Origin: Bacillota bacterium
GTDB taxonomy: Bacteria > Bacillota > Clostridia > Clostridiales > Clostridiaceae
Length of the DNA: 64,000 bases
Assembly: GCA_021781745.1 (NCBI GenBank)
Contig: JAJXWH010000011.1
Coordinates: 1 to 64,000, forward strand
Direction: 5' to 3'
The notes under the pieces were generated by a model. That model saw nothing but the letters and a program-made list of their open reading frames with translations. It did not search any database and had not been told where the DNA came from. Made by a program: the position numbers and the translations under genes. Numbering within the stretch: position 1 is the stretch's first letter; each line of letters starts with the position of its first letter. Of the stretch, positions 13,723 to 64,000 are shown piece by piece.

Positions 13723-13747
13723 ACCTTCTCCTATTCTAGACATATAC

Positions 13748-13795
13748 AAGAAATAACAAGCAATTTTCTAAAAAAGCTTCAGCTTGTTATTTCTT
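13748..13795 (-). promoter_or_regulatory. Intercistronic hairpin between jetC and jetD
   Basis: AAGAAATAACAAGC and GCTTGTTATTTCTT form a perfect 14-bp stem around a 20-base loop. It has no U-tract, so it is not a plain terminator. Within it AAGC-TGAA-GCTT followed by six T (minus strand) could form a competing weak terminator. It may set the JetC:JetD ratio. This is inference. Confidence 0.55.
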
Positions 13796-13805
13796 AAAAT
13801 CTAAC

Positions 13806-18990: not shown

Positions 18991-18994
18991 CTCC

Positions 18995-27694: not shown

Positions 27695-29392
27695 CTAAAT
27701 CAAGTCAGCATTTTCAATTTCATCAAGGAACTCCTTAAATTCTTTTGCTGCTTTTTCAATTTGAAGCCTGTCTTGCTTGTCTAATATGTCTTCAAATTCT
27801 CTAATATATAAGTCTATTTGTCTTCTAATATCCCCAAAGGTTTCTTCGTACAATCTCTCTCCCCTAGATAAAAGCAATTTGTTTTCTTCTCTTTCCCGAG
27901 GAATTATCTTTAATTCCTTAAGTTCCTGTAGTCTTTGTTCAATTTCTTCCTCTGACATATTGCTATCGCTTCTTTGAATTACTATTCTCTTTTTCAACTT
28001 TGTGGATAAAACAGTAACTTCTACTTCTAAAATTGAATTTATATCATAAGTATAGGTCACATCTATTGCTTCCTTTCCAGCCGAATTCCTTGGAACTGGA
28101 ATATTAATTTCTCCAAGATATAAATTGTTTTTAGCAAGCCTGCTTTCTCCCTGTAAAATTTCAACTTGAATTTGGGCTTGATTATCATAAACTGTGTAAA
28201 GTCTTTCAGTTCTGCTTACAGGAATTACTGTGTTCCTTTCAATAATCGGGAAGAAATGACCTGATTCATAAAACTTTCCTTGCTTTTGAACAGATACGTT
28301 AGTACCAAGGGTATATGGACATACATCGGTTAAAACAATTTCCCTGATTGCCTCATTTCTTTCCTTCATGGCTCCTTGAACTGCAGCACCAAGGGCTACA
28401 GTTTCATCTGGATTAATGTGAGTGTTTGGGAGCATTCCAAATAATTTCCCAACAAAGTTACGCACTATAGGTAGCTTTGTCGCACCTCCAACTAAGATAA
28501 TTTCATCAATTTCCTTTACTTTTATTGCTGCATCACTAAGAGCCCTTTCAATAGGTTTTCTTATTTTTGATAACAACAATTGACAAGCTTTTTCATACTC
28601 CTCTAGTGAAATTTCATATTCTATTAGTTCATCATTAATTTTACACTTCATAGTGGAAGTCTTTGAAGCTGAAAAGCCTAGTTTGCAGCTTTCAGCCTGC
28701 TTTTTAATATAAGCTAAAGTCTTTCTGTCTAACGATGCCTCATCTATATTTTTTTCTTTAAGAAACATATTAAATAAAATATCTGTAAAATCTTCTCCTC
28801 CTAAAAAATTATCACCAGCTACAGCTCTAACTTCCATGATATTCTTATAAACTTCTAATACTGAAATATCAAAGGTTCCTCCACCCAAATCAAAAACTAA
28901 AAACTTAGTGCTGGCTTTTTTATTATGCAAGCCATAGGCAATGGCTGCTGCTGTTGGCTCATTTATCATTCTCTCAACCTTTAGCCCTGCTAGTTTTCCC
29001 GCTCTGACTGTAGCCTTACGCTGTGAATCATTAAAATACGCTGGTACACTTATAATAGCTTCTTCTACTGGTTGTCCTAAAAATTCTTCTGCTGCTTCCT
29101 TTAAGGAACGAATGACAAAAGAAGATAATTCCTCAGCTAAAAATTCCTTATTTCCTAATTTATATTTTTTTTGAGTTCCCATGCTTCTCTTAAATACTTC
29201 TGCACTAGAATCTGGATATAATATTTTTCTTTCTTTTGCTATATTTCCAACAAATATTTCATCCTTTTCATCTATGCTCACAATTGAGGGGGTTAAATTT
29301 TCTCCAAATCTATTTGGTATAATAACTGGACCATTTTCCGAAAAATATGAAACCAAACTATTTGTTGTTCCTAAGTCTATTCCTATTATCAT
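27695..29392 (-). CDS. hscC: Hsp70 family chaperone, HscC type
   Basis: 565 aa, clearly shorter than DnaK (about 610-640) and matching HscC. ATPase motifs are IGIDLGTTNSLV (3-14), VFDLGGGTFDISVL and ILVGGATKLPIVR. The substrate-binding domain (about 370-500) is present with YTLGTNVSVQKQGKF and EILQGES, but the lid is short. It lies 18 nt downstream of a large J-domain/TPR protein on the same strand. HscC in other bacteria also works with specialised J-proteins rather than DnaJ/GrpE. Clients are unknown. Confidence 0.85.
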   Translation of the reverse strand: MIIGIDLGTTNSLVSYFSENGPVIIPNRFGENLTPSIVSIDEKDEIFVGNIAKERKILYPDSSAEVFKRSMGTQKKYKLGNKEFLAEELSSFVIRSLKEAAEEFLGQPVEEAIISVPAYFNDSQRKATVRAGKLAGLKVERMINEPTAAAIAYGLHNKKASTKFLVFDLGGGTFDISVLEVYKNIMEVRAVAGDNFLGGEDFTDILFNMFLKEKNIDEASLDRKTLAYIKKQAESCKLGFSASKTSTMKCKINDELIEYEISLEEYEKACQLLLSKIRKPIERALSDAAIKVKEIDEIILVGGATKLPIVRNFVGKLFGMLPNTHINPDETVALGAAVQGAMKERNEAIREIVLTDVCPYTLGTNVSVQKQGKFYESGHFFPIIERNTVIPVSRTERLYTVYDNQAQIQVEILQGESRLAKNNLYLGEINIPVPRNSAGKEAIDVTYTYDINSILEVEVTVLSTKLKKRIVIQRSDSNMSEEEIEQRLQELKELKIIPREREENKLLLSRGERLYEETFGDIRRQIDLYIREFEDILDKQDRLQIEKAAKEFKEFLDEIENADLI

Positions 29393-29410
29393 AACTCTCT
29401 CCTCATGCTT

Positions 29411-32400
29411 TTAATTTAACAATTTTTCAACTCTTTCTATTGCCTCTCTTGTTGATTTACTTTCATAGCCTGCAGCTACAGCCTTTTTATAATACTCTAA
29501 TGCCTTTTCATAAGCTTTTTCTCTTTCATAAACTTCTCCAAGTCCAAAAAAGCCATCAGCACACACTTTATAATTACAATTTTCACAAAGCCTTGAATTG
29601 AGGGCTAAATTTAAATATTCAAAGGCTTTATTAGTATCTTCTAAACCATTGTAGCAGTTTCCAATTATGCTGTATTCATAAGGTGTTTTATTTTCAACTT
29701 TAAGAAACTTTTGGAGTGCAAGCTTATAATATTTTCTAGCTCTTAACTTTTTCCCTTGTTCTTTATAGGCTCCAGCAATTAATAAATAATTTACTCCTTT
29801 TTCACTATTAACGCTAATCTGCTGTTTATAATACTTTATAGCGGTATCATAATCTTTAAGATCATCATAAATTCTACCCATGTTTTCAAAGCCATATTTT
29901 GTCTTCGGATTTATTTCTAATACCATTTCCGCCCACTTAATGGCATTATCATAGTCTTCCATTGATTTGTAAGAACTACTGATCTCATCATAAAAATCTT
30001 CCAAAATACTTACACTAGTTTCTTTTTGGGCTTTATGAATCTCTATTCCTTTTAAATAAGTTTCAATTGCATCCTTATATAACTTCATATTTTTTAGCAA
30101 TTTAGCTTTTTTATAATATAGCTCGTCTTCATCTCTAAAATCTTCTATTGCCTTATTGTAATATTCAATGGCTAATTCATTTTCACCTATTTTTTTGTAA
30201 CAAGCAGTTATATTTTTATAAAATCTCATATCATCTTTAGCATTATCTACTTCTATAGCCTTTTTATAATAAGGTATAGCTTTTTCATGTTCATTTTTTC
30301 GTTCATAAAGATATGCCAAATTATTATATGGATAAGGATTTTCAGGTTCTAACTCAATAGCACATCGATAGTCTTTTTCCGCTTCCTCAAACTTTTCATT
30401 TCTTGCATAAAAAAGACCTCTATTTAAATAATAATAAGCGCTTTTTTCAATTTCAAGCTGTTTAGTAAAATGCTCTAATGCCTTATCATAATCATTAAGA
30501 GTTTCGTATATTTCTCCCATGGCATTATTAACAGTCGGGTTTTCTGGATCTAATCTTAAAACCTCCTCATAATAGTGCAGGGCTTCTGTGTAATTTTTAA
30601 TTTCTCCGTAAATTTGACCTAATTTTAAAAATGGAAAGTAGCTTGGGTTATATTTTTTATTATTTATAATGGTCTCGTAGTCTTTTATTGCTAAATCATA
30701 AGACCTTAAATACCTATAAGTCGCTGCTCTAAAATATAAATATTCTTCTTCATATTCTGAATTTTTTATTGCTTTATTTACATATACTAAGGCCTTATCA
30801 TATAAATTGCTGTTATATTTCATAATTGCAAGTTCAAATTGAATAGCTGCTATATTTTTTGTCTTTTTCTCTTTCAGTAGGTTTATAGCTAAATTTTCAG
30901 CTTCTTCAATTTTATTAGTATTACTTAAGGCTCTAAGCTTATAAATATCAGTTTCCTCATCAGTTATGTCCCTTTCCTCTAATTCTTTAGCAATTGCAAG
31001 AACTTCCTCATATTCTTCATAAATATAATATATTTTCATCTTAATTAAATAGGGCTTAGTATAGTAAGGATAAATGCTTATTGCTATATCCCCTTCTTCC
31101 ATTGCTTCTTTATAATACCTTAGATTAAATAATGTCTCACATTTATTCATATGTAAAAATACATCATCATTATTTAGCTCTAATCCTTTATTTAAAATTT
31201 CCAAACTTTCTTCATATCTATTTAAGTTATTTAAAACAAACCCAATATTGTTTAAAGTAAATATTTTATCTTCTTTTAACTCTAATGCCTTTTTATAAAA
31301 TTCCAAAGCACTTTCATAAGCTTCTTGATTTGAAAAGGTTCTTCCCTTTTGATAATAAACCATTTCCAGCTCTTCTTGCCTATATTCATTCTCTATTGTC
31401 TCATCCTCTAAATTAGCCTGCCACTTATCAAGATATTTTAAAACTTCTTCGTAATTATTTTTACTAAAATATGCTCTGCTAATTAAATCATAATATTGAT
31501 TTACATCTTCTTTGTCTGGTGTAAAGCTATGACATAGTTTTATAAGCTCATCATTTTTACCATTGTTAAAATAGTACCAGCCAAGCTTAAATTTAAGCTT
31601 CTTATCGTCTTTTTCCTCTTCACATTTCTTTTCAAGCTCTGCTATACGTTTATCACCTATGACAAATAACCTTTCTCTAACATAGTCATCGTAACGATTA
31701 ATTTCACCTGCTTTTTCAAAAAGCTTTTCAGCTTCATCAAGGTTGTCAGTTTCAAAATAGCAATCAGCAAGTCCAACTTTTGAATTATAATCCTCGGGAT
31801 TAATTTCAAGACACTTCTTATAATATTCCGCTGCTTCCTCATAATTTTTACATAACCACTCAACTTCAGCTATTCCATATAAAGCAAAAATTTCATTTGG
31901 ACATTTCTTTACTAAGGCTTCACCAAGCTGCCTTGCATTTTCCAACTCTTTAGTTATTAAATAATACCTTAAATGCCAATAATCAAGAGAAGGATGATTT
32001 ATATTATATTCATATATTTGTTCAAGATCACGTTTAGCTTCCTCAAGATTATTACTTTTTATTTCCCTTTGAATTTTAAAGAATAAAGATATCCATTCAT
32101 CATAAGGCTTCTTATCATCTATTGGATCAAAGGAATAATAATCTAAATTATCACTATAATCTGGGTTTATTCTTCCACTAACATAATTAATAAAATTCTC
32201 AGGATAATATTTATATAATTCCTCTATTTTTTCACTCCAAGAAAAATATTCATCAAATAAAAGCCATACCTTTTTAGGTAAACTGAAATAATTGATTAAA
32301 AATTCCAACAATTTATTGCTTGCTTCTTCTCTAGAATCTATACCAAAGCAAACCTCATCCTCTAATAATTCTCTCCAGGCATCTTCATCAATTCTTAAAG

Positions 32401-32635
32401 AAAATTTATTATAAGTTATCTTAACTCTTTTCATCCAAGTTCCAATTGGGGTATTATCCTCTGCTTCAGAAATATCCTCAGTATCGGCAAATTTCAAAGC
32501 TTCTTCATAAGCGGCTCTAAGCCTTTTAAAACCTTCTGCATCGTCCTCAGGATTAATTACTTGAAGCTTTGTCATATATGCTTCCTTTATCTCATTCTTA
32601 TCCTTAGTTTCATTAATTCCCAATATAGTCCACAA
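29411..32635 (-). CDS. Giant J-domain-like/TPR protein, partner of HscC
   Basis: 1074 aa. Residues 1-47 resemble the J-domain of DjlB/DjlC-type proteins (MWTILGINETKDKNEIKEAY, then GFKRLRAAYEEAL). The essential HPD loop reads N-P-E (VINPEDD). From about residue 190 to the end there are some twenty TPR repeats with the A-x2-Y-Y-x-K-A-(L/I)-E/x pattern (for example AAEYYKKCLEINPEDYNSKV). It is therefore a large client- or adaptor-binding scaffold joined to a degenerate J-domain. It is cotranscribed with the Hsp70 gene. Whether it can stimulate ATP hydrolysis without HPD is open. Confidence 0.8.
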   Translation of the reverse strand: MWTILGINETKDKNEIKEAYMTKLQVINPEDDAEGFKRLRAAYEEALKFADTEDISEAEDNTPIGTWMKRVKITYNKFSLRIDEDAWRELLEDEVCFGIDSREEASNKLLEFLINYFSLPKKVWLLFDEYFSWSEKIEELYKYYPENFINYVSGRINPDYSDNLDYYSFDPIDDKKPYDEWISLFFKIQREIKSNNLEEAKRDLEQIYEYNINHPSLDYWHLRYYLITKELENARQLGEALVKKCPNEIFALYGIAEVEWLCKNYEEAAEYYKKCLEINPEDYNSKVGLADCYFETDNLDEAEKLFEKAGEINRYDDYVRERLFVIGDKRIAELEKKCEEEKDDKKLKFKLGWYYFNNGKNDELIKLCHSFTPDKEDVNQYYDLISRAYFSKNNYEEVLKYLDKWQANLEDETIENEYRQEELEMVYYQKGRTFSNQEAYESALEFYKKALELKEDKIFTLNNIGFVLNNLNRYEESLEILNKGLELNNDDVFLHMNKCETLFNLRYYKEAMEEGDIAISIYPYYTKPYLIKMKIYYIYEEYEEVLAIAKELEERDITDEETDIYKLRALSNTNKIEEAENLAINLLKEKKTKNIAAIQFELAIMKYNSNLYDKALVYVNKAIKNSEYEEEYLYFRAATYRYLRSYDLAIKDYETIINNKKYNPSYFPFLKLGQIYGEIKNYTEALHYYEEVLRLDPENPTVNNAMGEIYETLNDYDKALEHFTKQLEIEKSAYYYLNRGLFYARNEKFEEAEKDYRCAIELEPENPYPYNNLAYLYERKNEHEKAIPYYKKAIEVDNAKDDMRFYKNITACYKKIGENELAIEYYNKAIEDFRDEDELYYKKAKLLKNMKLYKDAIETYLKGIEIHKAQKETSVSILEDFYDEISSSYKSMEDYDNAIKWAEMVLEINPKTKYGFENMGRIYDDLKDYDTAIKYYKQQISVNSEKGVNYLLIAGAYKEQGKKLRARKYYKLALQKFLKVENKTPYEYSIIGNCYNGLEDTNKAFEYLNLALNSRLCENCNYKVCADGFFGLGEVYEREKAYEKALEYYKKAVAAGYESKSTREAIERVEKLLN

Positions 32636-51351: not shown

Positions 51352-51396
51352 AAGGTAGTGGATTTGTGTAAAACAAATCTACTACCTTCTTTTTTT
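51352..51396 (+). terminator. Intrinsic terminator at the end of the STAND cluster
   Basis: AAGGTAGTGGATTTGT pairs with ACAAATCTACTACCTT (one G-T-type mismatch), followed by CTTTTTTT on the plus strand. It lies 20 nt beyond the stop of the last cluster gene, which reads from the other side. Confidence 0.7.
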
Positions 51397-51415: not shown

Positions 51416-54400
51416 TTACTCTTCTTCTTCTATTTGCTTTTTCCCAAGTTCAATTATCTCTTTAGTTACTAAGAATGGAAACTCTACTTTCCGTATTCCA
51501 AAAGCATCTGAATATAAAATCCTTAATCCATTTTCTTTTTCATTAAAACTGATTCTACAGGTATCTGGAACATATAAGAGTTTTCTTATCTCTTTTCCTT
51601 CGGATAAACTGTAAACTTTTAAAGACAAATCGTCGAAAATTACAGCAACCTTAGTTTTAGATTGGCTTATAATATAATACTTAATTACCCCTTCACTTTT
51701 TATCTTATTATAAAGGTCCACACTTATTTTAAAGTTCTTACCATTCCAATAGGAACGAATTTCTCCTTCCTTTTCATTTATCATAAATAAATGCTTGTAA
51801 TCTTCAGTAGTTTCATCTAAAAGCTTTCCACTTTCAATATCATAAAACAAAGTTATTGCACTCTTCCAGGTTGTAAAATGAAGCTTTGTATCATCAATTG
51901 AAAATGCTAAATAACTGCAGTCTTCTTGATATTTAATTTGCAAAACCTTTTGTAGTTTGTTATTCTTAAAATCCCAAAATTCTACTGAGGTATCATCCCC
52001 ATTTCTTCTTGAAATAGCAAACCTGTCTTCTTTATTATTAAATGCACATTTCTCAAATGAATCACATTGTTGTAAATCTATTTTATATTCATTTTCCTCA
52101 TTTATATTATAAAAAATTATAGTATTATTATTTTCTCTTACAGCTAATATATTTCCGCTATTACTTTCTGCAAGTATATTATCTCCATTCAATTTTCTAA
52201 GCACATTGCCAGTTTTTAATTCTATTACCCAAATTTCCCCTTTAAAAGTATTAAGATAACCATAGTCATTATTTATACTTGTTGTAAAAGTTCCTCCTTC
52301 AGGAATATCAAAACTTTTTTCATTCTTATCATCATTAGTATCAATAATATCTAATTTGCTATATTCTTTTTTTACTATATATTCATTCAGATAGCTTGCT
52401 TCTAAATTAGATTCTCCTAAAGAATCCCCCTCTAAGATACTCTTTCCAACTGTTTCTTCATCCATTACAACCTGCAGTTGTTTTGAATTTAAAAGAGTTA
52501 TAAGACATTTTTCTTCAGCATTATATATAAATTTAGGTACTGCATAATTGATTTTATCATCAGTTATTTTGAATGCTGATCTTAAAATTTTTCCTTCTGA
52601 AACATTTAACATAATAAAATTGTTATCATTAGTTAATAACATTAAATACCTTCCATCATCACTTAATTTAAAATCTTTTACACCTTGCATCCCCTGATTC
52701 ATTACTAATTTCCTTTTATTAATATCAATTACACAGCATTCACTCTTATTTAATACTGCTAGTGTTGTAAAATCCTTGCTTATTGTTATTTTACTTTCAC
52801 CATTTTTAAAATCTTTAATTAAATCACTATATATTAGCTTATTCTTTTCAATTAACTTATCATCTCCAAATTCATAATCCACTATGGTACCATCATTAAA
52901 TACTACTCTAAGAATATTTTCTTGTATAAGTTTCATATCTTGAAAGGTTTTAGGCATATAATAGCATTTATATGGTAAACCAGTTTTTTTATCAAATAAA
53001 ACTATTGCAGTTCTATCTTTAGAGTACTCATCATATGAAGCTATAATGTAATTTTCATTCATCTCTACTGCTCTATAAAAAGGATTATTTTCATCATCAA
53101 AAGGCAGTTTACATGTAGTTACTACTTTTTCTTCATCCAGGCTAACTAAATGAATATTCATTATCTGTGTTCCCTCTGGATTAGTTAAACAGATAATATT
53201 TTCCCTATCATGAAAAAGTTTAAAACCCATCAGCTTGTCTATAGTCATAGTTTTTGTCTGCTTTAATGTACTTTCGTCAAATACGGAAATTTTATTAGTG
53301 GAAGATACTATTATTTTATTATCATTTTTTAAAAAGCTTATTTGATTCCAAATATCTGTCTTTACTTGATTCAATTTATTTAAACTTTTAGTTGAATATA
53401 AGCTTAAAGTTCCATCTGAAGAACTAACAATGAATTTATCGCCATTGCTATTAAAAGCTAAATCTACTATATTATTATCTTCTGTAATCAAGCCTTTTAC
53501 ATTATCTTGTCCCATTGGAAGAAATAATCCATTATAAAGAAGATCCTCTCCTTCCTTTAAAATGGCTGTTTCATCTTTGCTTATGTCACTAGTTAACACT
53601 GAAAGGCTGCTTTTAATTGAACCTAGTCTATCCACTTGCTTAAATTCCGAATTTGCTAAATCAATTTTTTTTAAGGCTTCCTGTCTTTTAGCTGCCTCCC
53701 TGCTTTTTATCTGATTGCTTAATTGCAAGAAAATGAATATACATATAGCGATTGTTACTATAGTAGTAAATACTCCTGCTCCTACTTTCCTTCTTCTATC
53801 TCTTTTAGCTTTTTCAATTGAAAGCTCTATATATACCCTTAATTCTTCACTTATATCTTTTCTTCTTAAACTCAACATTTTTGCTGCATTATCAAGTTGC
53901 GTTCCCTTTTGTATTAAATAATCCTTTTGCTTTTTTTCCATATCCCACTTATTTCTAAATAACGTCAGTTTTTCCCTCTGTTTAAAAAATTCCTTGTCCT
54001 CTTCAATAAGACTTTGAATTCTTGGCCAATTAGTCAAAAGTGCATTATGGGCAGTTGTAACAATCCCTCTTCCTTCACCATCACTATCAACCACTAAAAG
54101 CCTTGCAGCAATGAACTTATCTACTAGTTTTCTTTTCTCTTTTGTATTACAAAATACTTCCTCAGAAACTCTTTTAGACCACACAGTATCCTCTTCATAA
54201 GGATTTATTGATATCAGCTCTCTAAATATACCTTCAAGTTCCCTAGAAATCTCCTCACTTAAATAAGCTAATATATCTTCTGCAATTGTAGCAATAGAAC
54301 CTTTTAAACCTCCAAGCTCATTATAAGCTTCAAAGGTTAATACATTGTTATCAGTTTTTCTTTTATAAAGTTCATTTAAAGTAAATTGCAAAAGAGGTAG

Positions 54401-55660
54401 ATTATTTGTACTACTAAAAGCTTCTTCAAGTATTACATCCTTAAGACTTACTCCTTTATCAGTATCTATCTCAAAAGTAAGCCCAGCGGCCTTTGCAGGT
54501 TTTATGATTATTTGCGACATTTCTGGAAAACCTGGTGGTGTTAAGTCATACTGTCCTTTTCCCTCTTTAATTTCAACTAATTCCTCATACTCTAATATCC
54601 TATTATAAAAATCACTTCTCATATTTGCTAAAATCCATATAAATCCGCTATGAACTAATTTATATAATAGCCTAAAAAAGATATTCCTATCTTCCTCTAA
54701 TATTTGTGAATTTATAAATAAGTCTTCTAACTGATCAATTAATAGAAATATTTTGATATTAGGTAACCATGTATAAGGCTTATTTGTTTTTTCTTTATAA
54801 CTTTTTATCTTCACCATATGTTTCATTCTGCTTATTCCCAGTTCTAAATCCCTTTTAAAATCTTCTTCAAGTGATAAATATTCCTGTCCAAGAGACTTTA
54901 ATAATCCATGTATTAAATCCTTGGGACTTTCTGAAGGAGTAAATATTGCTTTTTCCCATAAATCTACTCCTTCAATAACACCTAATTCTGTAATCAATGG
55001 AAGTACTCCAGCTCTTGCTAAAGATGATTTTCCGCAACCACTCATACCTAAAACTAATAAAAAAGGATTACCTATAGCATCTTGATACAAAAATTTCTCC
55101 TTAATTTCCCCTATATCTCTTGTTCTTCCATAAAACACTTTTGAATACTCTTCATTAAAATATTCTAGTCCTCTAAATGGTGAGCCTTTATTCCAGGTAA
55201 TGGGATGACTTTCTTCCTTATTATAATGGGTAATTTTTGGCAATATGAGTTTTCTTAAATGGGCTTCTAGTCTCACTTCAAACTCATTTAAATCATCGAA
55301 AGTATGAAAAGCGGCCTTAAAACCGCTTGATGGATTACCAAACCATTCATCCAAAAATTCTATCAGTTCTTTTGAAGTCTCTTCCATTGATGCCTCTGCG
55401 GTCTTTTTATAAACTATGAGATCCGGAAAGCCTTTTTCAACATATGCTTCAGCAGCCTCTTTGAAACCTATTTTATCACCTAATTTGCACCACAAAATAT
55501 ATAGTGCAATATCAGCTGAAAAGGACTTATCTGTATCTTCAAGCTCAATGTAAGCATCAAATTCATCTTGAAGCCTATTTAAAACTCTTTTCATTATTAC
55601 TCTTTCTTGTCCCACATCAGATGGAGCAGAAATAAAAACTTTAAGTTTTGTTTTATTCAC
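51416..55660 (-). CDS. nSTAND1 ATPase with reduced DUF4062 N-domain, TM helix and propeller (paralogue 1)
   Basis: 1414 aa. The N-terminus (KLKVFISAPSDVGQERVIMK) is DUF4062/TIR-like, but two segments present in the neighbour (its residues about 41-62 and 84-103) are missing. The nSTAND1 NTPase follows: Walker A GMSGCGKS (205-212), Walker B IFLLIDQLEDLF, and WILANMRSDFYN. A single membrane helix lies at about 625-646 (VFTTIVTIAICIFIFLQL). The rest is a WD40/YVTN-like beta-propeller (FNSNGDKFIVSSSDGTLSLY). It starts with GTG, with its RBS overlapping the stop of the upstream paralogue, so the pair is coupled. Such proteins usually sense a trigger with the C-terminus and fire an N-terminal effector. 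Confidence 0.8.
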   Translation of the reverse strand: MNKTKLKVFISAPSDVGQERVIMKRVLNRLQDEFDAYIELEDTDKSFSADIALYILWCKLGDKIGFKEAAEAYVEKGFPDLIVYKKTAEASMEETSKELIEFLDEWFGNPSSGFKAAFHTFDDLNEFEVRLEAHLRKLILPKITHYNKEESHPITWNKGSPFRGLEYFNEEYSKVFYGRTRDIGEIKEKFLYQDAIGNPFLLVLGMSGCGKSSLARAGVLPLITELGVIEGVDLWEKAIFTPSESPKDLIHGLLKSLGQEYLSLEEDFKRDLELGISRMKHMVKIKSYKEKTNKPYTWLPNIKIFLLIDQLEDLFINSQILEEDRNIFFRLLYKLVHSGFIWILANMRSDFYNRILEYEELVEIKEGKGQYDLTPPGFPEMSQIIIKPAKAAGLTFEIDTDKGVSLKDVILEEAFSSTNNLPLLQFTLNELYKRKTDNNVLTFEAYNELGGLKGSIATIAEDILAYLSEEISRELEGIFRELISINPYEEDTVWSKRVSEEVFCNTKEKRKLVDKFIAARLLVVDSDGEGRGIVTTAHNALLTNWPRIQSLIEEDKEFFKQREKLTLFRNKWDMEKKQKDYLIQKGTQLDNAAKMLSLRRKDISEELRVYIELSIEKAKRDRRRKVGAGVFTTIVTIAICIFIFLQLSNQIKSREAAKRQEALKKIDLANSEFKQVDRLGSIKSSLSVLTSDISKDETAILKEGEDLLYNGLFLPMGQDNVKGLITEDNNIVDLAFNSNGDKFIVSSSDGTLSLYSTKSLNKLNQVKTDIWNQISFLKNDNKIIVSSTNKISVFDESTLKQTKTMTIDKLMGFKLFHDRENIICLTNPEGTQIMNIHLVSLDEEKVVTTCKLPFDDENNPFYRAVEMNENYIIASYDEYSKDRTAIVLFDKKTGLPYKCYYMPKTFQDMKLIQENILRVVFNDGTIVDYEFGDDKLIEKNKLIYSDLIKDFKNGESKITISKDFTTLAVLNKSECCVIDINKRKLVMNQGMQGVKDFKLSDDGRYLMLLTNDNNFIMLNVSEGKILRSAFKITDDKINYAVPKFIYNAEEKCLITLLNSKQLQVVMDEETVGKSILEGDSLGESNLEASYLNEYIVKKEYSKLDIIDTNDDKNEKSFDIPEGGTFTTSINNDYGYLNTFKGEIWVIELKTGNVLRKLNGDNILAESNSGNILAVRENNNTIIFYNINEENEYKIDLQQCDSFEKCAFNNKEDRFAISRRNGDDTSVEFWDFKNNKLQKVLQIKYQEDCSYLAFSIDDTKLHFTTWKSAITLFYDIESGKLLDETTEDYKHLFMINEKEGEIRSYWNGKNFKISVDLYNKIKSEGVIKYYIISQSKTKVAVIFDDLSLKVYSLSEGKEIRKLLYVPDTCRISFNEKENGLRILYSDAFGIRKVEFPFLVTKEIIELGKKQIEEEE

Positions 55661-55671
55661 ATTTACACCAC

Positions 55672-58600
55672 CTACTGATAAATTTCGCTTCTAGCCTTAT
55701 CTATAATTTCTTGTGAAGAAAGAAATGGAAGCTCCTGAATTTTTGAGCCACTTTCAGTATCAAATATCACAATTAAGCTATCCTCATTATCTGAAAAAGC
55801 CACATTAACTAAATTGGGAACACTATAAATTTTCCTTATCTCTTTTTCCTCCGATAGGTCATATACTACTAAACTTGAATCATCATATAATACTACAAGC
55901 TTTGTTTTAGATGGACTCACAAAAAAATCTCTAATATTACCTTTAGATTTTATACTCTCATAAAAAACTTTGGTTATTTCAAATCCATTATTCTTTTTAT
56001 TTAAGAGTCCACCCCATCTTAAAAACATTTCTCCCTCTTTATCATTTTTATAATATACATGATTAAAAGGTTCCTTTGATTCTTCAATAACTTCTGAGGT
56101 ATTAACATCATAAAGAAGTCTTCGTTCACTAAAATTTGTACCTATAGAAATCATCTTTCCATCCAAACTAAAAGCAAAGGAATCCATGCTTTCTTCTTTA
56201 CTTATTTCCTTTGTAAAAAATGAATTTTTACAAAGTTCATTTTTATAATCCCAAAGCTGTACTTCAAAATTCTCCTCATCCTTTCTTGATATCTGCATAG
56301 CAAAGGTTGTATCGTTATAATCAAAGGTAGATCCATCAATAAAATCGCCCTTTATAAAATCAATTTTTATTCTATATTCTTTTTTATTATTCAAATCATA
56401 AAAAGCTATATTTTCATCATCAATTGATACTGCTATGATACCGTTTTTATGACCCTCTGCAAGTATATAGCGCCCTTTAAGTATATTCAAGACACTACCT
56501 GTTTCAAGATCAATGACCCATATTTCATTGTTATTAGTAGTAACATAGCAATAATTTTTATTAGTACTTATTTCAATTGATGAATCCTTTGGTAGAAAAA
56601 GAGCTTTCTTTTGATTTTTATTTTTTGTATCTATAATAACAAGCTTGTCCCCAATGAGATCACCCTTTAAGATATCTACAATATATCTATTTGTATAACT
56701 AAATTGAGTTGTCAGCCTGTTAACCTTTATAGGAAGATTCTGCCCTATTTTTTCGTCATCCTGTATTAATTGCAATACCTTATCATCTATCTTATTAATA
56801 AAATATTGCCCGTTCATATTGTATCTAAGGCCACAATCATATTCTCCGTCTTCATTAAGTGTATTATCTATGCCTTTTGGGTCAACCAATGACATTTTTT
56901 CAAGATTTAATATAAATTTCATCCCATTTTTTTTGGTTATTATTATAAAGTACTTCCCGTCAGGAGTTAGAGTTGAATTTTTTACATCATTATAATCCTC
57001 TTTATAAATCAGCCTTTTATCCTTTACATCTCCAATAAAAATTCCATTGCTGCCTACTACAGAAACTTTAGACATATCCTTATTACTCTTAACTTCAAAA
57101 GCATCCCTTACTCCCAAATCCAAATATAGATCTTCCTTAAGCTCTTCTGCACTTATGTCTAAATCAAATATTCTTCCATCACTATATAGAACCCTTAATT
57201 TATTTTCCTCAATAAATTGTGATGCATTAACTACAAACTGAAATGAATAACTTTTTAATTGCTTTCCATTACTCCTGTCATATATAACTAGACCTCCAAC
57301 TGGGTTTGAAGGCAATTTGAAAGCAGCAGCAATATATTTTTCATTCATACAAATAGTGGTAGTAAATATATTACTACTAGTATCAAAAGGATTTGTACAA
57401 TTTATATAGTCACCTTTATTAATATCAAGTAAAAATATCCCCTTTGCCCCCTTAAGCCTGCTATCCGCATAAAGGAAAGAGTCTCCCTCTAATATTGCCA
57501 TGTTGATATCCATTTTTTCTGTTGGTATTTCTTTTATTTTTTCCAAAGAAGTAGCATTAAAAATAATTATATTTTCACTATTATCCATTGCCAGATTACT
57601 ATTTTTTACAGCTACAATTATCTTACTATCATCCTTACTGAAAACAGCTCCATATGCGATAAGATTATTTCCAAGGACGAATTCCTTTATTTTGTCTAAG
57701 GATTTTGTAGAATATAAGGCAATAGTTCCATCTGAACAACTTACTAAGAGTTCATCTCCTTTGTTATTGAAGGTATAATCCGTAATTGAACTATTTGTGG
57801 TTAATAAACCCCTAATATAGCTATTTTCACTTGGCATAAACATACTATTATAAAGGACATCTTCTCCTTCTTTTAAAAAAGGTTTATCAGGCTTGTCAAT
57901 GTTTTTAGGTAATGCTAAAAGACTATTTTTCATCGCTCCAAGCCTGTTTTCCTTTTTTAGCTGCTCCTGTGCCAAGCTTGTAAGCTTCCTAGATTCTGTC
58001 ATTTTGGCTTCCTCATTTTGGCTTACAGCCTTTTTCCACTGATTAAAACCAATTATTGAAAATACAATAAGAAATATTGATGCAAATAATAATATTCCAA
58101 TTGTTTTTCTACGTTTTTTCCTACCACGACTTTTGGAAATTTCAATATAATTTATTAATTCTTCATTTAAATCTTCTCTTCTACTTTGCAGTATTTTAGC
58201 TGCTAAATTAAGCTGTTTTCCTAAAGGAATAAGAAAATCTTCTTTTTTATCTTCTACTGTCCATTGATACATGGAAAATAAAAGTTCTTCTCTTGTTTTT
58301 AAAAAATTCTTATCCTCCTCTATAAGTTCTCTTATCCTATTCCAATGAGTGAGGAGTGCCTCATGGGCTACCAATATAACCCTATTTCCTTCATTATCTT
58401 TATCCGCTACGAGTAATCTAGCATCTATAAATGCTTCTACCAGTTTTCTTTTTTCAGCAGTGTTACATAAAATCCTTTCCTGTGCTCTTTTTGACGAAAT
58501 CCCATTTTCGGCATACGGGTTTACAGATACTAAATCTCTAAATACTGTAGGCAGCTGAACAGATACTTCCTTTGGCAAAGAAGCTAATACGCCTTCTGCC

Positions 58601-60108
58601 ACTGTTGAGATAGCTCCATTAATTCCTCCTATTTCCCTATAATATGAAAAGGTCAATACATTATTGTCAGTCTTTCTTTTATACAATTCGTTTAGAGTAA
58701 ATTCAAGTAAAGGAAGACTATTATTATTCTTTGAGGCTTCTTCCTGAATTACATCATAAAGGCTATTTCCAGTTCCACTTTCTGCTTCAAAAAGTAAACC
58801 TGCTGCTTTTGCAGGGTTTATTATTATTTGCCTAATCTCAGAAATACCTAGAGGCATCAAATCATACTGACCAGTTTCTTTTTTCATTTCCATAAGTTCT
58901 GATATTTCTGTAACCTTGCAATAAAAATCACTTCTCATATTAGCTAAAATCCAAACATCTCCACTGCAGCAAAGCGAATGCAAGAAGCTAACGAAACTAT
59001 CCCTATGCTGCGTAGTAATATGTAGATTAGTAAATAATTCTTCCATTTGATCTATTACAATAAATATTTTTATTTTAGGAATTCTTGTATAATTATTTTT
59101 ATCCTTTTCCTCATAAGCCTTTAACTCCAATACATCCTTTAATCTTTTTAACCCTTTGTTTAAATCACTTTTAAAATCCGGTTCTAATTTCAAAAAATCT
59201 TCACCCAATTTATATAGCAGCCCATGTATCAAATCCTTTGGGCTCTCTCCTGGAGTTATGATTACCTTAATCCATACATCAATGCCATCTATTACACCAT
59301 ATTGTGTTATTACCGGCAGCACTCCTGCTCTAGCTAATGAAGATTTTCCACATCCGCTGCTTCCAAAAACCATAACAAAATTACAGCCTGTCGTTTCTTG
59401 AAAAAGAAATGCATCTTTTATTTTTCCAATATCCTTTGCTCTGCCATAAAAAATTTTAGAGTAACTCTCATCAAAGTATTGAAGACCTCTATAAGGTGAC
59501 CCTTTATACCATGTTATTGGTAGTTTATCTTCGCCTATATACTCAGGAATTTTTTCTTTTATAAGTTCTCTAAGCTGTCCTTCTAAATCATCCTCAAATT
59601 CATCTATTTCTTCAAAAGAATATAAGCCTACATTAAAATCATTTTCAGGATTTCCAAACCATTTATCTAGAAATGAATTTAGAGCTTTTTTTTGTTCTCC
59701 TGAAAAGAAGGTCCTATTCTTCTCCTTCACAATTGGTTCTATTGTCTTTTTATACACGAGAATATCTGGTATTCCTTTAGTCCTATTGGCTTTAACTGCG
59801 TCTTCAAATTCCCACTCTGTTCCAGAGGAATAATCTGATCCATCATCTTTCTTAAAACTTTTAGGAAGTTTAGTGCCAAGTCTTGCCCAAAGAATACATA
59901 TAACTATATCTGTGGAAGATGGATAAACTATCTGCTCTTGAAAATGAGCTGTAGCCCTAAGTGGCTCAAACTCCCACAATATAGGCTCTAGTTCTACATA
60001 ATCCATGAATTCCCCTTGAAGTTTTTCTATTACTCTTATCGCAGTAACTCTTTCATGACCTACATCTCCAGGTGACGATATGAAAATCTTTAATTTTTTC
60101 TTTCCCAT
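55672..60108 (-). CDS. DUF4062-nSTAND1 ATPase with TM helix and propeller (paralogue 2)
   Basis: 1478 aa. The full DUF4062-like N-domain (1-125) begins KKLKIFISSPGDVGHERVTA and includes ELEPILWEFEPLRAT and SSGTEWEFEDAVKA. The nSTAND1 domain has Walker A GSSGCGKS (249-256), IFIVIDQMEELF and WILANMRSDFYCKV. One membrane helix lies near 668-688 (IGILLFASIFLIVFSIIGF). The remaining 790 residues are propeller-like (FNNKGDELLVSCSDGTIALY). Roughly half of the aligned positions match the downstream paralogue, indicating an old tandem duplication. AGGTGG precedes the ATG; 34 nt separate it from the SLOG gene. Likely a signal-transducing defence ATPase; target unknown. Confidence 0.82.
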   Translation of the reverse strand: MGKKKLKIFISSPGDVGHERVTAIRVIEKLQGEFMDYVELEPILWEFEPLRATAHFQEQIVYPSSTDIVICILWARLGTKLPKSFKKDDGSDYSSGTEWEFEDAVKANRTKGIPDILVYKKTIEPIVKEKNRTFFSGEQKKALNSFLDKWFGNPENDFNVGLYSFEEIDEFEDDLEGQLRELIKEKIPEYIGEDKLPITWYKGSPYRGLQYFDESYSKIFYGRAKDIGKIKDAFLFQETTGCNFVMVFGSSGCGKSSLARAGVLPVITQYGVIDGIDVWIKVIITPGESPKDLIHGLLYKLGEDFLKLEPDFKSDLNKGLKRLKDVLELKAYEEKDKNNYTRIPKIKIFIVIDQMEELFTNLHITTQHRDSFVSFLHSLCCSGDVWILANMRSDFYCKVTEISELMEMKKETGQYDLMPLGISEIRQIIINPAKAAGLLFEAESGTGNSLYDVIQEEASKNNNSLPLLEFTLNELYKRKTDNNVLTFSYYREIGGINGAISTVAEGVLASLPKEVSVQLPTVFRDLVSVNPYAENGISSKRAQERILCNTAEKRKLVEAFIDARLLVADKDNEGNRVILVAHEALLTHWNRIRELIEEDKNFLKTREELLFSMYQWTVEDKKEDFLIPLGKQLNLAAKILQSRREDLNEELINYIEISKSRGRKKRRKTIGILLFASIFLIVFSIIGFNQWKKAVSQNEEAKMTESRKLTSLAQEQLKKENRLGAMKNSLLALPKNIDKPDKPFLKEGEDVLYNSMFMPSENSYIRGLLTTNSSITDYTFNNKGDELLVSCSDGTIALYSTKSLDKIKEFVLGNNLIAYGAVFSKDDSKIIVAVKNSNLAMDNSENIIIFNATSLEKIKEIPTEKMDINMAILEGDSFLYADSRLKGAKGIFLLDINKGDYINCTNPFDTSSNIFTTTICMNEKYIAAAFKLPSNPVGGLVIYDRSNGKQLKSYSFQFVVNASQFIEENKLRVLYSDGRIFDLDISAEELKEDLYLDLGVRDAFEVKSNKDMSKVSVVGSNGIFIGDVKDKRLIYKEDYNDVKNSTLTPDGKYFIIITKKNGMKFILNLEKMSLVDPKGIDNTLNEDGEYDCGLRYNMNGQYFINKIDDKVLQLIQDDEKIGQNLPIKVNRLTTQFSYTNRYIVDILKGDLIGDKLVIIDTKNKNQKKALFLPKDSSIEISTNKNYCYVTTNNNEIWVIDLETGSVLNILKGRYILAEGHKNGIIAVSIDDENIAFYDLNNKKEYRIKIDFIKGDFIDGSTFDYNDTTFAMQISRKDEENFEVQLWDYKNELCKNSFFTKEISKEESMDSFAFSLDGKMISIGTNFSERRLLYDVNTSEVIEESKEPFNHVYYKNDKEGEMFLRWGGLLNKKNNGFEITKVFYESIKSKGNIRDFFVSPSKTKLVVLYDDSSLVVYDLSEEKEIRKIYSVPNLVNVAFSDNEDSLIVIFDTESGSKIQELPFLSSQEIIDKARSEIYQ

Positions 60109-60142
60109 TAAGATACCACCTAAATATTAATTTTATAAATTA

Positions 60143-61873
60143 CTAACCTTTCGGTAATGCCATTGGTTTTTCTCTATACAAAATCACCCAGTCACCATTT
60201 TCGAGCAATGCATCTTTACCTATTTCAAATATGATTTCATCAACTTGCATAATATTTTCTTTATTAATGTATAAATCTAAATAATTTTTAGCACACTCAA
60301 AAATTTCTTCCATTCTTTTATACCTTTTTTGTTGCTCTGAGAAAGCCATTTTGTTAGTATATCCTCCAATTGCAGCTGCAATAGCTGGTGCCAGTCCCAT
60401 GATTATTATTAATAAATGATGCAGGTTGTTTGGAATTTCAAACTCAAATAATTCCATTAAAAATAGCACTATTGCAGTAGCAATACCTCCGAAAAAGAAT
60501 AAGTTAATCTTTCTTTCCTGACTTTCAAAATTTCTCTTATGCTGTCTGCTTTTTTTATAATAATATTTAAATTGGTCTTCTACCCAATGACTCATTACAT
60601 ATTTTGCACTTTCTATAGATCCTACAGATTTATTAATGGTATCATTGACTTTATAAATATTGTGCATTCTTAATACATACCGTACCCATTCTAATTCTGT
60701 TTTTTGTTTTTTTAAATAATAATCAGCTACTTCATAATTTATCTCCATTAGCTTCCAATAAATTTGAACTCTAAAACCTTCTGCTATGGCCCTATAATCT
60801 ATATACTTATTGTGTATATTATTTTTGTTTGCAATATAATAAAAAAAACCTGCAAGTATAATGGTTACTGGGTATAGTAAGAGTACTAAATTATATGAAA
60901 ACATATGTGCATATAATTCAAAAAAAAGTACTGCTATTACTCCAAGTATAAACAAGCTTTTTTGTGCTTTTGTACTTATATTTTGATAATATAATGAAAG
61001 TACATCTGCGCATCCATAGCTTCTAACCATTACTTGAGTTTCGTAATCAGCTTGTTTTAATTTCTCTTCATCAATAATATATCCTATGTTCTTTTTCATC
61101 AGATTTATATTCTTATATAAGTGATTTTTAATATCCTTATTGAATTCATCGATCTGTTGGATAACTTTATCGTAGACAATTTTTGCTTTTTTATTTTTCT
61201 CATTATAAACATCCATACTATAAGCATCTTCTCTTATTCCAGGAAATTTTCTATTTATTGAAAATTTCTCACCAATTACGTCATCCCTCTCCATTCTAGG
61301 TGTTACGATATGATATACTGAACCACTATCATTAAAATTTAATATATCATTATTCTTTCTATAATTATTTGGTATTCCAAACAATTTATAATTAACCACC
61401 TGAGATGTTCCTCCCTTTTTCCCATTTTCTATGCCATTCCATAGTGCAATTAATATATGAGCATTTTGAGCGATAAATACCCCTAAATTTTCATAATACA
61501 CATCATTTTCCATATTAGTAAAACTATCATTCATTGGTACTTTAAAATATCTTTTCGCTTTTGATATAAGCTCTCTAAATTCTACCTTTGATTCCTCTAA
61601 AAAAGTCGCCTCATATTCTTCTCTTTTCATAGGTAACGGTGCAACTAAATCAATTCCAATTTCTAGAGCTGCCCTAGCAGCAATACGATCTGCACCTTCA
61701 GCTAGTGGTGATAATAATACAATAGGAGAATTAGTACATAAGCTTTTGATTTCCATTACTATTTCCTTAATTTTATTTTCTAATATTTTATAATTTTCTT
61801 TGGCTATATCTCTATGTCCTGTAATTCCAATAATAATAGGTACTAATAATTCCTTATCGCTTTGAATTACCAT
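60143..61873 (-). CDS. SLOG-domain protein with four membrane helices (SLATT-like)
   Basis: 576 aa. The N-terminal 200 residues resemble the SLOG nucleotide-sensing fold: IIIGITGHRDIAKENYKI, LLSPLAEGADRIAARAALEI and AHILIALWNG. Two helical hairpins follow: TM 306-326 and 328-347, then TM 456-476 and 486-505 (GGIATAIVLFLMELF, MGLAPAIAAAIGGYTNK). The helical sections between them resemble SLATT-type predicted pore formers. A plausible reading is ligand binding by SLOG that opens a membrane pore and causes dormancy or death. GGGGGAT precedes the ATG. Central gene of the cluster. The SLOG call is moderate and the SLATT link is inference. Confidence 0.65.
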   Translation of the reverse strand: MVIQSDKELLVPIIIGITGHRDIAKENYKILENKIKEIVMEIKSLCTNSPIVLLSPLAEGADRIAARAALEIGIDLVAPLPMKREEYEATFLEESKVEFRELISKAKRYFKVPMNDSFTNMENDVYYENLGVFIAQNAHILIALWNGIENGKKGGTSQVVNYKLFGIPNNYRKNNDILNFNDSGSVYHIVTPRMERDDVIGEKFSINRKFPGIREDAYSMDVYNEKNKKAKIVYDKVIQQIDEFNKDIKNHLYKNINLMKKNIGYIIDEEKLKQADYETQVMVRSYGCADVLSLYYQNISTKAQKSLFILGVIAVLFFELYAHMFSYNLVLLLYPVTIILAGFFYYIANKNNIHNKYIDYRAIAEGFRVQIYWKLMEINYEVADYYLKKQKTELEWVRYVLRMHNIYKVNDTINKSVGSIESAKYVMSHWVEDQFKYYYKKSRQHKRNFESQERKINLFFFGGIATAIVLFLMELFEFEIPNNLHHLLIIIMGLAPAIAAAIGGYTNKMAFSEQQKRYKRMEEIFECAKNYLDLYINKENIMQVDEIIFEIGKDALLENGDWVILYREKPMALPKG

Positions 61874-61952
61874 ACTATATCCCCCATAAACCTAAAATTT
61901 TAACTTTCAAATTTTGATTTTAAAACATTTGATATTTTCTTTTTTATATTAC

Positions 61953-62360
61953 TTAATTATTCATTTTTCTTATTGTAATATTCCCTGACATAAACACTGC
62001 TGCTGGTGGTTTATATTCTATTTCTAAGGTTTCATTTGCGCCAATATAAAAGGTCTTAGTAGTTTTACCATATTTAGTATTACCCAAATATGGCACACAA
62101 GCAACAAATGTATGATTACCTGGCTGCACATTACAGCTAACTTGCTGTCCTTCTCTTACCTTAAAGTTTAATTGTTCATCTAATGTTACATTCAAAGGTT
62201 CTGTAAGCAGCAAAAATATAGGATTTTTCTTATATTTAAAAACTACGGATGAACTAATACTGTTTTGTTCCTTTATAGGCTTATCTACGCGAGTTCCGCA
62301 AACTGGACAAAAAAACGAAGAATCATCTAACTGATTACCACATTTCGTACAAAAAGCCAT
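61953..62360 (-). CDS. Zinc-ribbon protein with a C-terminal beta domain
   Basis: 135 aa. The N-terminal zinc ribbon has C4-x-x-C7 and C18-x-x-C21 (FCTKCGNQ, FFCPVCGTRV). After a polar linker, residues about 45-135 are beta-rich (FLLLTEPLNVTLDEQLNFKV, GNHTFVACVPYLGN, KTFYIGANETLEIEYK), a PEGA- or Ig-like fold. No membrane helix is present. It may be an adaptor between the dynamin-like GTPase and the membrane proteins. GGGAGG precedes the ATG; it begins 24 nt after the GTPase stop and 79 nt before the SLOG gene. Function unknown. Confidence 0.7.
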   Translation of the reverse strand: MAFCTKCGNQLDDSSFFCPVCGTRVDKPIKEQNSISSSVVFKYKKNPIFLLLTEPLNVTLDEQLNFKVREGQQVSCNVQPGNHTFVACVPYLGNTKYGKTTKTFYIGANETLEIEYKPPAAVFMSGNITIRKMNN

Positions 62361-62384
62361 AATAATAACCTCCCTTTCATATTT

Positions 62385-64000
62385 TTATATATTAGAATTA
62401 CAAGCAATATCTTCAAGTTTACTAAGCTTTAATTTTGCTGTCTCAACAATATCCTTTGCCGCTTGAAGTCCTAGCGTTATATAGTCTTTTTCTGTAGCTT
62501 CTCTCATTGATATATCCTGTACTTGCTTTATAGCAGTTAAAGATGAACTTATTTGATTTTCATATATTTTATCCAGCTCTGTTTCAGCGAATTGTACAAT
62601 ACTTTCATAAACCTTTCTAAGCTCTGAAAAAATACTATCTTTAATCTGGGCATAATTACTTAAAATATTATTTATATATTTTTCTTGCTGCTCCGTTGTA
62701 TTATCTTGTTTAGCAAATCCAATTATGGCTTGACCCAATAGTGTTAATGCCCCCAACCCTGGAATAAACTGAAGGGCTACAGCTGCTCCATCTAAGTTTG
62801 TCCATGAGATATCTTCCATTGAACTTGCAATTTTTGTAGAGGAGGCTGATAAGGCTAAATTAGAAAACTCATTAGCAAAATTCTCTGAAGCATCCTTTAA
62901 CAGCTTGGCTATATTTTTAAGATGAACATTTGTGCATTCAATTATTGCTGAACGAATCATATCAATCATATAAAAATGTAGATGCTTCTCTAATAATTCT
63001 AGAGGGGTTTCTTTAGCTGAAGTAATTTCCTTTTTTAATCGTTCTAAAAAATTTTCCAGCCATTTTTTTGCTTCACTATACATTTCCCTTATTTCAAGTT
63101 TTACAACTTCCTTATGCTTTTCAATACCTTTCAATAAAATCGAGTTTTCATTCTCATATTGATCAATTAAATCTTTAAGCTTAGTTTTACTTAAAAGTAG
63201 CATGTTATCAATTAAAGTTATTCTCCCTTCAACTTCCCTTATCATAATTTTAACCAAATTAACGCAGCGTTCTGTTTGAATAATCTCCTTCTTCATAACA
63301 ACATCTTTTTGAAGAGTGCTTCGCATTTCATCAAAGGCTTTTTCTAATATTTCATTTAAATCTGGATTTGGCCGTTTAAGTTTTTGTCTTCTGCAATATT
63401 CATCTAGAGCACTGACTGTATATACATAGCTATTTGGAAAAATGTTTGTTAATTTACCATTAATTAAAGCTTTTATTTTTTCAATTTCCTCAAAGTTTTC
63501 TAAGCAATCCATCATGTTTAGTACCACAAATAATTTCGAAAAATTTTGAGGCAGTATTGATGCACAAAGAAAAGTCTGCTCTGTTTCAGATAATGGAGAA
63601 AGAGCTGATACCACATATATTACTGCATCTGCATAAGTCATGTAATTTTTAATCTTATCATCAAATCTATTCAATATATCTCCAACACCAGGGGTATCTA
63701 TTATTCTTATACCTTTTAATGTATCTATTGGCATTTTAATATCTATATATTCAATAGGACATGGAAGCTTTGATATAATTACATCCAGTTTGCCTCTATT
63801 AAGTTCGCTTATATCAAGCATTATACGTCTTCCATTTTCTAAAACAGCTTCAACACTATTTTTCTCAGCATAGGAAATACGGTTAATAGTAACTGTTTCA
63901 GGAGTAACATTTGTAGTAACAACTTTTTCACAAAGAAAGGCATTAACAAGAGTAGATTTTCCTCGTTTAAAATCACCAATTATAACGATAGAAAAATTAT
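62385..64000 (-). CDS. Dynamin-like GTPase (5' end outside the window)
   Basis: About 538 codons are visible and the frame stays open to the right edge. G1 is GDFKRGKST in IVIIGDFKRGKSTLVNAFL, G2 is a Thr in TNVTPETVTINR, G3 is IIDTPGVGD, and G4 is LNMMD. After the GTPase domain come long helices (about 250-390) and a hydrophobic stretch (ALQFIPGLGALTLLGQAIIG) that could insert into membrane, then further helices. This is the build of bacterial dynamin-like proteins, which remodel or repair membranes; several take part in phage defence. An internal ATG at 63821 is not the start because the G1 motif lies upstream. Further cluster genes may lie beyond the edge. Confidence 0.82.
   Translation of the reverse strand, partial: NFSIVIIGDFKRGKSTLVNAFLCEKVVTTNVTPETVTINRISYAEKNSVEAVLENGRRIMLDISELNRGKLDVIISKLPCPIEYIDIKMPIDTLKGIRIIDTPGVGDILNRFDDKIKNYMTYADAVIYVVSALSPLSETEQTFLCASILPQNFSKLFVVLNMMDCLENFEEIEKIKALINGKLTNIFPNSYVYTVSALDEYCRRQKLKRPNPDLNEILEKAFDEMRSTLQKDVVMKKEIIQTERCVNLVKIMIREVEGRITLIDNMLLLSKTKLKDLIDQYENENSILLKGIEKHKEVVKLEIREMYSEAKKWLENFLERLKKEITSAKETPLELLEKHLHFYMIDMIRSAIIECTNVHLKNIAKLLKDASENFANEFSNLALSASSTKIASSMEDISWTNLDGAAVALQFIPGLGALTLLGQAIIGFAKQDNTTEQQEKYINNILSNYAQIKDSIFSELRKVYESIVQFAETELDKIYENQISSSLTAIKQVQDISMREATEKDYITLGLQAAKDIVETAKLKLSKLEDIACNSNI

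Follow-up and report, generated by a model that had tools for sequence, protein, structure and literature searches.

A 64,000-nucleotide stretch of Clostridiaceae DNA (hereafter the window; GenBank assembly GCA_021781745.1) is cut off at its right edge within a cluster of genes encoding dynamin-like GTPases, an M48 peptidase, a SLOG-domain protein with four transmembrane (TM) segments (SLOG-4TM) and two STAND ATPases. The conserved unit of this cluster is a trio in which an M48 peptidase gene lies between the genes for the dynamin-like GTPases DynB and DynC. An initial annotation of the window had regarded the five genes visible at its right edge as one conserved system; the conserved unit found here is DynB-M48-DynC, which lies mostly outside the window.

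The window is the first 64,000 bases of a contig that measures 113,878 bases and comes from a 5.7-Mb genome. A GC content of about 30% and the species in which M48 relatives occur point to a Clostridium-like host. The five same-strand genes at its edge are real, including their gaps of 24, 79, 34 and 11 nt, and their suspected incompleteness was confirmed by extension along the contig, which adds the rest of DynC, M48, DynB, ZnR1 and DynA. This results in nine co-directional genes over 18 kb in the order DynA-ZnR1-DynB-M48-DynC-ZnR2-SLOG/4TM-STAND2-STAND1, with intergenic gaps of 101, 64, 18, 14, 24, 79, 34 and 11 nt from DynA to STAND1. The genes are organized in two modules, A (DynA, ZnR1, DynB, M48, DynC, ZnR2) and B (SLOG-4TM, STAND2, STAND1), with the following features:

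51352..51388, no strand assigned: 16-pair stem-loop just past the STAND1 stop codon, possible transcript end
51416..55660, - strand: STAND1, 1414 aa; shortened DUF4062-like N-terminus, nSTAND1 (3.3e-79), one TM segment, WD40-type propellers
55672..60108, - strand: STAND2, 1478 aa; DUF4062-like (TIR-like) N-terminus, nSTAND1 (1.1e-81), one TM segment, WD40-type propellers
60143..61873, - strand: SLOG-4TM protein, 576 aa; YpsA-like SLOG domain, then four TM segments with weak similarity to SLATT
61953..62360, - strand: ZnR2, zinc ribbon, 135 aa; Zn_Ribbon_1 (4.4e-7), no strong TM segment by hydropathy
62385..64000 inside the window, start at contig base 64193, - strand: DynC, dynamin-like GTPase, 602 aa in all; Dynamin_N (3.1e-18)
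64208-65173, past the window, same strand: M48 peptidase; Peptidase_M48 profile
65192-67231, past the window, same strand: DynB, dynamin-like GTPase; Dynamin_N
67296-67703, past the window, same strand: ZnR1, zinc-ribbon protein with two TM segments
67805-69589, past the window, same strand: DynA, dynamin-like GTPase; Dynamin_N

The nine genes may form one transcription unit, as suggested by their common direction, the short gaps and a terminator scan. On the - strand, the intergenic stretches of the unit contain no terminator-like site; a single weak one was found within STAND2, and a 20-pair terminator-like stem is located upstream of DynA. The stem-loop at the end of STAND1 has its T-rich tail on the + strand side, hence its use by the operon is uncertain. 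Promoter-like matches around the unit occur at chance level only. The start of DynA is possibly located five codons downstream, at an ATG preceded by GGAG (L002:6560-6590; L numbers designate loci).

The dynamin-M48-dynamin core

DynA, DynB and DynC match Dynamin_N with 101.9, 106.6 and 66.8 bits, respectively (cut-off 27). The M48 protein matches Peptidase_M48 with 79.5 bits (cut-off 20.3) and has the motif HECGH and the downstream Glu; no membrane segment was found in it. Conservation was assessed in the neighbourhoods of 22 M48 relatives, derived from 21 genomes with strong matches and one faecal contig, which together with the window locus make up 23 core loci. In all of these, homologs of DynB and DynC flank the M48 gene and share its strand; in L161, an extra 189-aa open reading frame (ORF) separates M48 from DynC. 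The M48 match of genome G1127 (L157) contains one in-frame stop. The faecal contig counted among the core loci, MT836781.1, is the sole M48 match in the phage collection, a short unverified record in which DynB-M48-DynC lies beside an integrase-like ORF (by eye); scans of viral contigs gave no M48 relatives.

The core-bearing genomes are spread over four families of the class. An M48 relative is encoded in 19 of 148 sampled genomes from the family of genome G564 (E 1e-25) and is rarer in a class-wide sample (5/391 at E 1e-35, host counted), while among 194 genomes sampled from the host's family DynB was found at E 1e-60 in one, namely the host itself. Relatives of the M48 protein in databases also include cyanobacterial proteins. 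Weaker M48 matches in L102, L103, L117, L118 and L119 probably belong to another M48 group, with a dynamin neighbour in none of the five, the stretches covering 10 kb for L117 and 4 kb for L118. Multi-dynamin clusters of other Clostridia (L105, L106, L107) and a Lysinibacillus plasmid with three dynamin genes in a row (L128:3873-10539) were left uncounted, as no M48 match or annotation adjoins them.

Two forms of the core can be distinguished. In four loci (the window, L120, L121 and L164) a zinc-ribbon gene lies upstream of DynB, accompanied by DynA in three of them, and HECGH with the downstream Glu is kept in 4/4. In the 19 loci without this zinc-ribbon gene, HExxH is kept in none, compared with 118 of 119 M48 database relatives in a pattern check. 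When the three core proteins are concatenated, an unrooted tree separates the two forms with a support of 1.000. Thus, the loss of HExxH looks like a single event, and its link to the zinc-ribbon gene is unreplicated. The association still suggests that DynA or the zinc-ribbon protein may be a substrate or partner of the protease, and that the M48 protein may keep a structural role once the active site has been lost. In mitochondria, the M48 peptidase OMA1 occurs together with the dynamin-like GTPase OPA1. The present M48 protein differs in having no detected membrane segment and in having lost HExxH in 19 of the 23 loci, so that the likeness is an analogy only.

A rather unlikely reading takes module A for an anti-phage system in its own right, consisting of dynamins of the LeoA/LeoBC (Eleos) type to which a peptidase has been added. 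Eleos likewise comprises several adjacent dynamin-like GTPases, and PADLOC profiles match DynB (LeoBC 2.1e-22, LeoA 3.2e-21), DynA (LeoA 5.9e-18) and the window part of DynC (LeoBC 6.2e-14). These E values range from 1e-14 to 1e-22, and the profiles lack a curated cut-off. In addition, a dynamin-like protein of B. subtilis has been reported to protect against phage lysis (PMC8844932). However, other dynamins may match the Leo profiles equally well, no PADLOC model matches the M48 protein, and the operon differs from Eleos by the M48 peptidase between two dynamins and by its zinc-ribbon genes. Furthermore, two species of one genus (L116 and L122) have the trio behind the same genes, judged by eye to be transporter-like, an arrangement suggestive of stable inheritance. 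The neighbours of several trio-only loci are metabolic-looking by eye; for module A, a housekeeping membrane role therefore seems as likely as defence.

A literature search at the level of titles and listings, with subscription journals mostly outside its scope, turned up no description of a dynamin-M48-dynamin operon. In the main text of the paper on GTPase-centric systems, which pair a DO-GTPase with GAP1 (PMC7159879), no word starts with 'dynamin' or 'm48'.

The SLOG-4TM protein and the two STAND proteins

The predicted model of the SLOG domain matches YpsA and, at a lower level, the SLOG domain of ThsA, while TRPM channels, also present among the SLOG fold matches, superpose only poorly. 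SLATT profiles remain below their cut-offs for the SLOG-4TM protein (SLATT_1 22.1 versus 26.3, NCBIfam 24 versus 41). A PDB sequence search with the SLOG profile gave nothing at 0.1, and SIR2 had no match in the protein at E 0.1, its place being taken by the four TM segments. This distinguishes the protein from Thoeris, in which a TIR protein (ThsB) is combined with a SLOG-containing protein (ThsA): here, SLOG is fused to four TM segments instead of SIR2, and the putative enzyme is a DUF4062-like domain on an nSTAND1-WD40 protein. The initial annotation had not recognised the five-part combination as a known system, and PADLOC indeed gives no strong match for the SLOG or STAND proteins.

Neighbours of SLOG-4TM were analysed in 72 of 80 genome loci, in which the SLOG ORF was recovered at E 1e-30. 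Co-directional neighbours encode TIR proteins in 18 loci, DUF4062 proteins in four and TrkA-N/RyR-like proteins in six, with any of these in 26. TIR ORFs make up 21 of 90 SLOG-4TM neighbours compared with 18 of 543 other ORFs of the same loci, with a Fisher value of 1.4e-9 that is inflated by related species and by seeds drawn from five of the loci. In L072, SLOG-4TM is followed after a 30-nt gap by a DUF4062-NACHT-TPR gene. Among 278 genomes of the class, two others encode SLOG-4TM, both as TIR-WD40/SLOG-4TM pairs from one genus. A loose TIR catalytic pattern is matched by 30 of 41 TIR-labelled ORFs, the rest probably being partly another TIR type or false labels, and no inference was drawn from it.

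TrkA-N proteins with a C-terminal RyR match are encoded upstream of SLOG-4TM in L005:7843-9699 (RyR match below cut-off), L012:4915-7212 and L028:3495-5228 and are a possible second ion-channel partner. On a contig titled Thermoplasmatales archaeon (L042:810-5208), a DUF4062-like ORF, a TPR ORF and SLOG-4TM lie in a row, so the SLOG-4TM/DUF4062 pairing may reach Archaea. TIR proteins near SLOG-4TM in L005, L009 and L012 start with a zinc-ribbon-like CxxC stretch (by eye). An origin as phage or plasmid cargo was rejected: scans of viral contigs gave two weak SLOG relatives, and tblastn with the SLOG protein gave no match in the phage collection and three partial matches in plasmids. The Heliobacterium locus L020, with SLOG near TIR proteins, an M48-zinc-ribbon gene and Hsp70-like and HerA-like genes (the last two by eye), was considered as a possible duplicate of the complete operon and rejected, as it contains no dynamin.

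DUF4062 proteins have been reported to hydrolyse nicotinamide adenine dinucleotide (NAD) to ADP-ribose and to act in phage defence (PMC13174449), and SLATT proteins have been predicted to be membrane effectors near TIR genes that are regulated by ADP-ribose derivatives (PMC9503650). TIR-SLATT pairs (PMC9503650, PMC7159879) likewise place a TIR-type enzyme beside a membrane protein predicted to answer such derivatives; in the present case, the putative enzyme is part of a STAND ATPase, and the membrane protein combines a SLOG domain with its four TM segments. Swarozyc (PMC13174449) resembles STAND2 in its DUF4062-type N-terminal domain with presumed NAD cleavage, although the DUF4062 match of STAND2 is sub-threshold. 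Where Swarozyc has a C-terminal HTH (helix-turn-helix)/winged portal-binding domain, STAND2 has nSTAND1 and WD40-type propellers, and its neighbour is SLOG-4TM. According to the same paper, Swarozyc needs no partner protein to deplete NAD. By analogy, STAND2 could kill through NAD depletion alone, with SLOG-4TM as an independent second effector or regulator; since SLOG-4TM is repeatedly paired with TIR or DUF4062 genes, this is quite unlikely.

Both STAND proteins match the nSTAND1 profile with high scores (267.7 and 275.9 bits, cut-off 27.1). For the predicted model of the STAND2 N-terminus, TIR and DNPH1 folds are the best VIA matches, with the RPS4/RRS1 TIR structure on top; no Pfam TIR match was found. 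PDB sequence searches gave none for STAND2 at 0.01 and only a chance-level match (E 0.98) for the DUF4062-like profile. A motif pattern was matched by none of nine DUF4062 ORFs, the canonical members carrying TEMEI, and no inference was drawn.

STAND1 and STAND2 share 40.5% identity over the whole proteins and 56% within nSTAND1. The N-terminal domain of STAND1 lacks two stretches, the second of which includes SGTEWEF, and no third copy of this domain was found in the genome at E 1e-3. The two deletions could indicate that STAND1 is a functionless duplicate in decay. However, both are in frame, all 1414 codons are open, the GCGKSS P-loop is retained in the still similar nSTAND1 region, and a purine-rich ribosome-binding-like stretch precedes the start, which makes decay a fairly unlikely explanation. 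A role as non-catalytic partner is moderately favoured, because ATPase, reading frame and propellers have been kept.

Plant NLRs such as RPS4/RRS1 occur as pairs. The two STAND proteins are likewise adjacent related receptors, one without the presumed catalytic stretch, but they are of the nSTAND1-WD40 instead of the NB-ARC-LRR type, and their functional pairing is putative. The order of a DUF4062-like domain, a STAND ATPase and WD40 repeats is shared with TEP1/NWD1-type STAND proteins (PMC13174449); these have NACHT where the present proteins have nSTAND1 and, in addition, a TM segment.

Relation of the two modules and proposed mechanism

As the best overall explanation, the nine genes would act as one unit, in which module B provides NLR-type abortive infection and module A a membrane-remodelling device. 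This is proposed tentatively and with somewhat less than an even chance. Several observations weigh against it. The DUF4062 match of STAND2 (E 0.0017) is under the Pfam cut-off, and hhalign gives 7%. Within the sampled stretches, none of the 22 other core loci has a SLOG, nSTAND1, TIR or DUF4062 match, and none of 82 SLOG-protein loci, with flanks of up to 10 kb and many contigs shorter, has a core-profile dynamin at E 1e-3. The coupling of A and B thus rests on one operon in one genome. The five-part neighbourhood claimed in the initial annotation is therefore not conserved in the sample, whereas each half is conserved together with partners of its own; the observation itself was real but truncated, and its interpretation is supported in part.

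Accordingly, it comes close to an even chance that a TIR-like/SLOG-4TM cassette was inserted downstream of a conserved dynamin-M48-dynamin operon and, being an unrelated system, merely shares its transcript. Apart from the missing co-occurrence, this is favoured by unequal relatedness: M48 relatives, for example in Clostridium formicaceticum, reach 74-79% identity, compared with 40% for the best SLOG relative, and the best other relatives of STAND2 cover only part of the protein, so that separate histories of the two halves seem likely. On the other hand, ZnR2 and SLOG-4TM are separated by 79 nt without a terminator-like site on the - strand, and a further core locus, L120, has a downstream STAND-type gene (protein-kinase-NACHT).

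For the nine-gene unit, the following scheme is conceivable, with trigger, signal molecule, coupling of the modules and all biochemical steps inferred; what was observed are gene order, conservation, domains, motif losses and neighbour associations. A phage or damage cue would bind the WD40 propellers of the STAND proteins, upon which the membrane-anchored nSTAND1 ATPases would oligomerise. The TIR-like domain of STAND2 could then cleave NAD to ADP-ribose or a relative, with STAND1, which lacks the conserved acidic stretch, as non-catalytic partner. Binding of the NAD-derived product by the SLOG domain would open the four-TM part and depolarise the cell. The dynamin-like GTPases and the M48 peptidase of module A would constitute a conserved membrane-remodelling device, in which M48, in the zinc-ribbon form of the operon, might process the zinc-ribbon protein or DynA. 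In this organism, module A may sense membrane stress or reseal membranes as module B fires. A more far-reaching version is very doubtful: a bacterial paired NLR in which tandem nSTAND1-WD40 receptors, with one working and one disarmed TIR-like domain, supply a TRPM2-like, SLOG-gated membrane pore with ADP-ribose and share their transcript with a dynamin-M48-dynamin device that reshapes or reseals the membrane in the manner of OMA1 and OPA1.

The sensing, effector or membrane character that the initial annotation gave to the five proteins is supported, and so is their setting among defence genes: the contig has PADLOC matches to Wadjet (JetA, C, D), Septu (PtuA, PtuB), type IV restriction and Pycsar (cyclase, TM effector). 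From this position, too, a defence role of module B is likely. The Wadjet-like set (JetD, JetC, a DUF2398 protein and JetA) lies at 12436-20482 of the window. A Septu-like PtuA/PtuB pair (1.3e-118 and 2.9e-45) is located at L002:9706-11458 (contig ~72.7-74.5 kb), and a Pycsar-like cyclase (PycC 2.2e-90) followed by a PycTM-like effector (1.4e-32) at L003:8614-11727 (contig ~91.6-94.7 kb), with two more cyclase-like ORFs nearby. At window positions 27695-32635, genes for an Hsp70-family protein (436.8 bits) and a TPR protein of 1074 aa lie side by side and point the same way.

Significance for dynamin and SLOG proteins

Most of the value of the cluster lies in the dynamin-M48-dynamin trio with its protease loss, followed by the TIR/SLOG-4TM pairing and then by the STAND pair. 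The M48 peptidase is a steady genetic partner of dynamin-like GTPases that is retained in 23/23 loci even with its active site gone. The trio makes the role of this partner directly testable and raises the question of dynamin-M48 pairing beyond mitochondria. The recurrent proximity of SLOG-4TM genes to those for TIR or DUF4062 enzymes, whether or not a STAND ATPase is included, points to a widespread group of membrane effectors gated by NAD-derived signals. If STAND1 works, the two STAND proteins would represent a bacterial counterpart of the paired immune receptors of plants.

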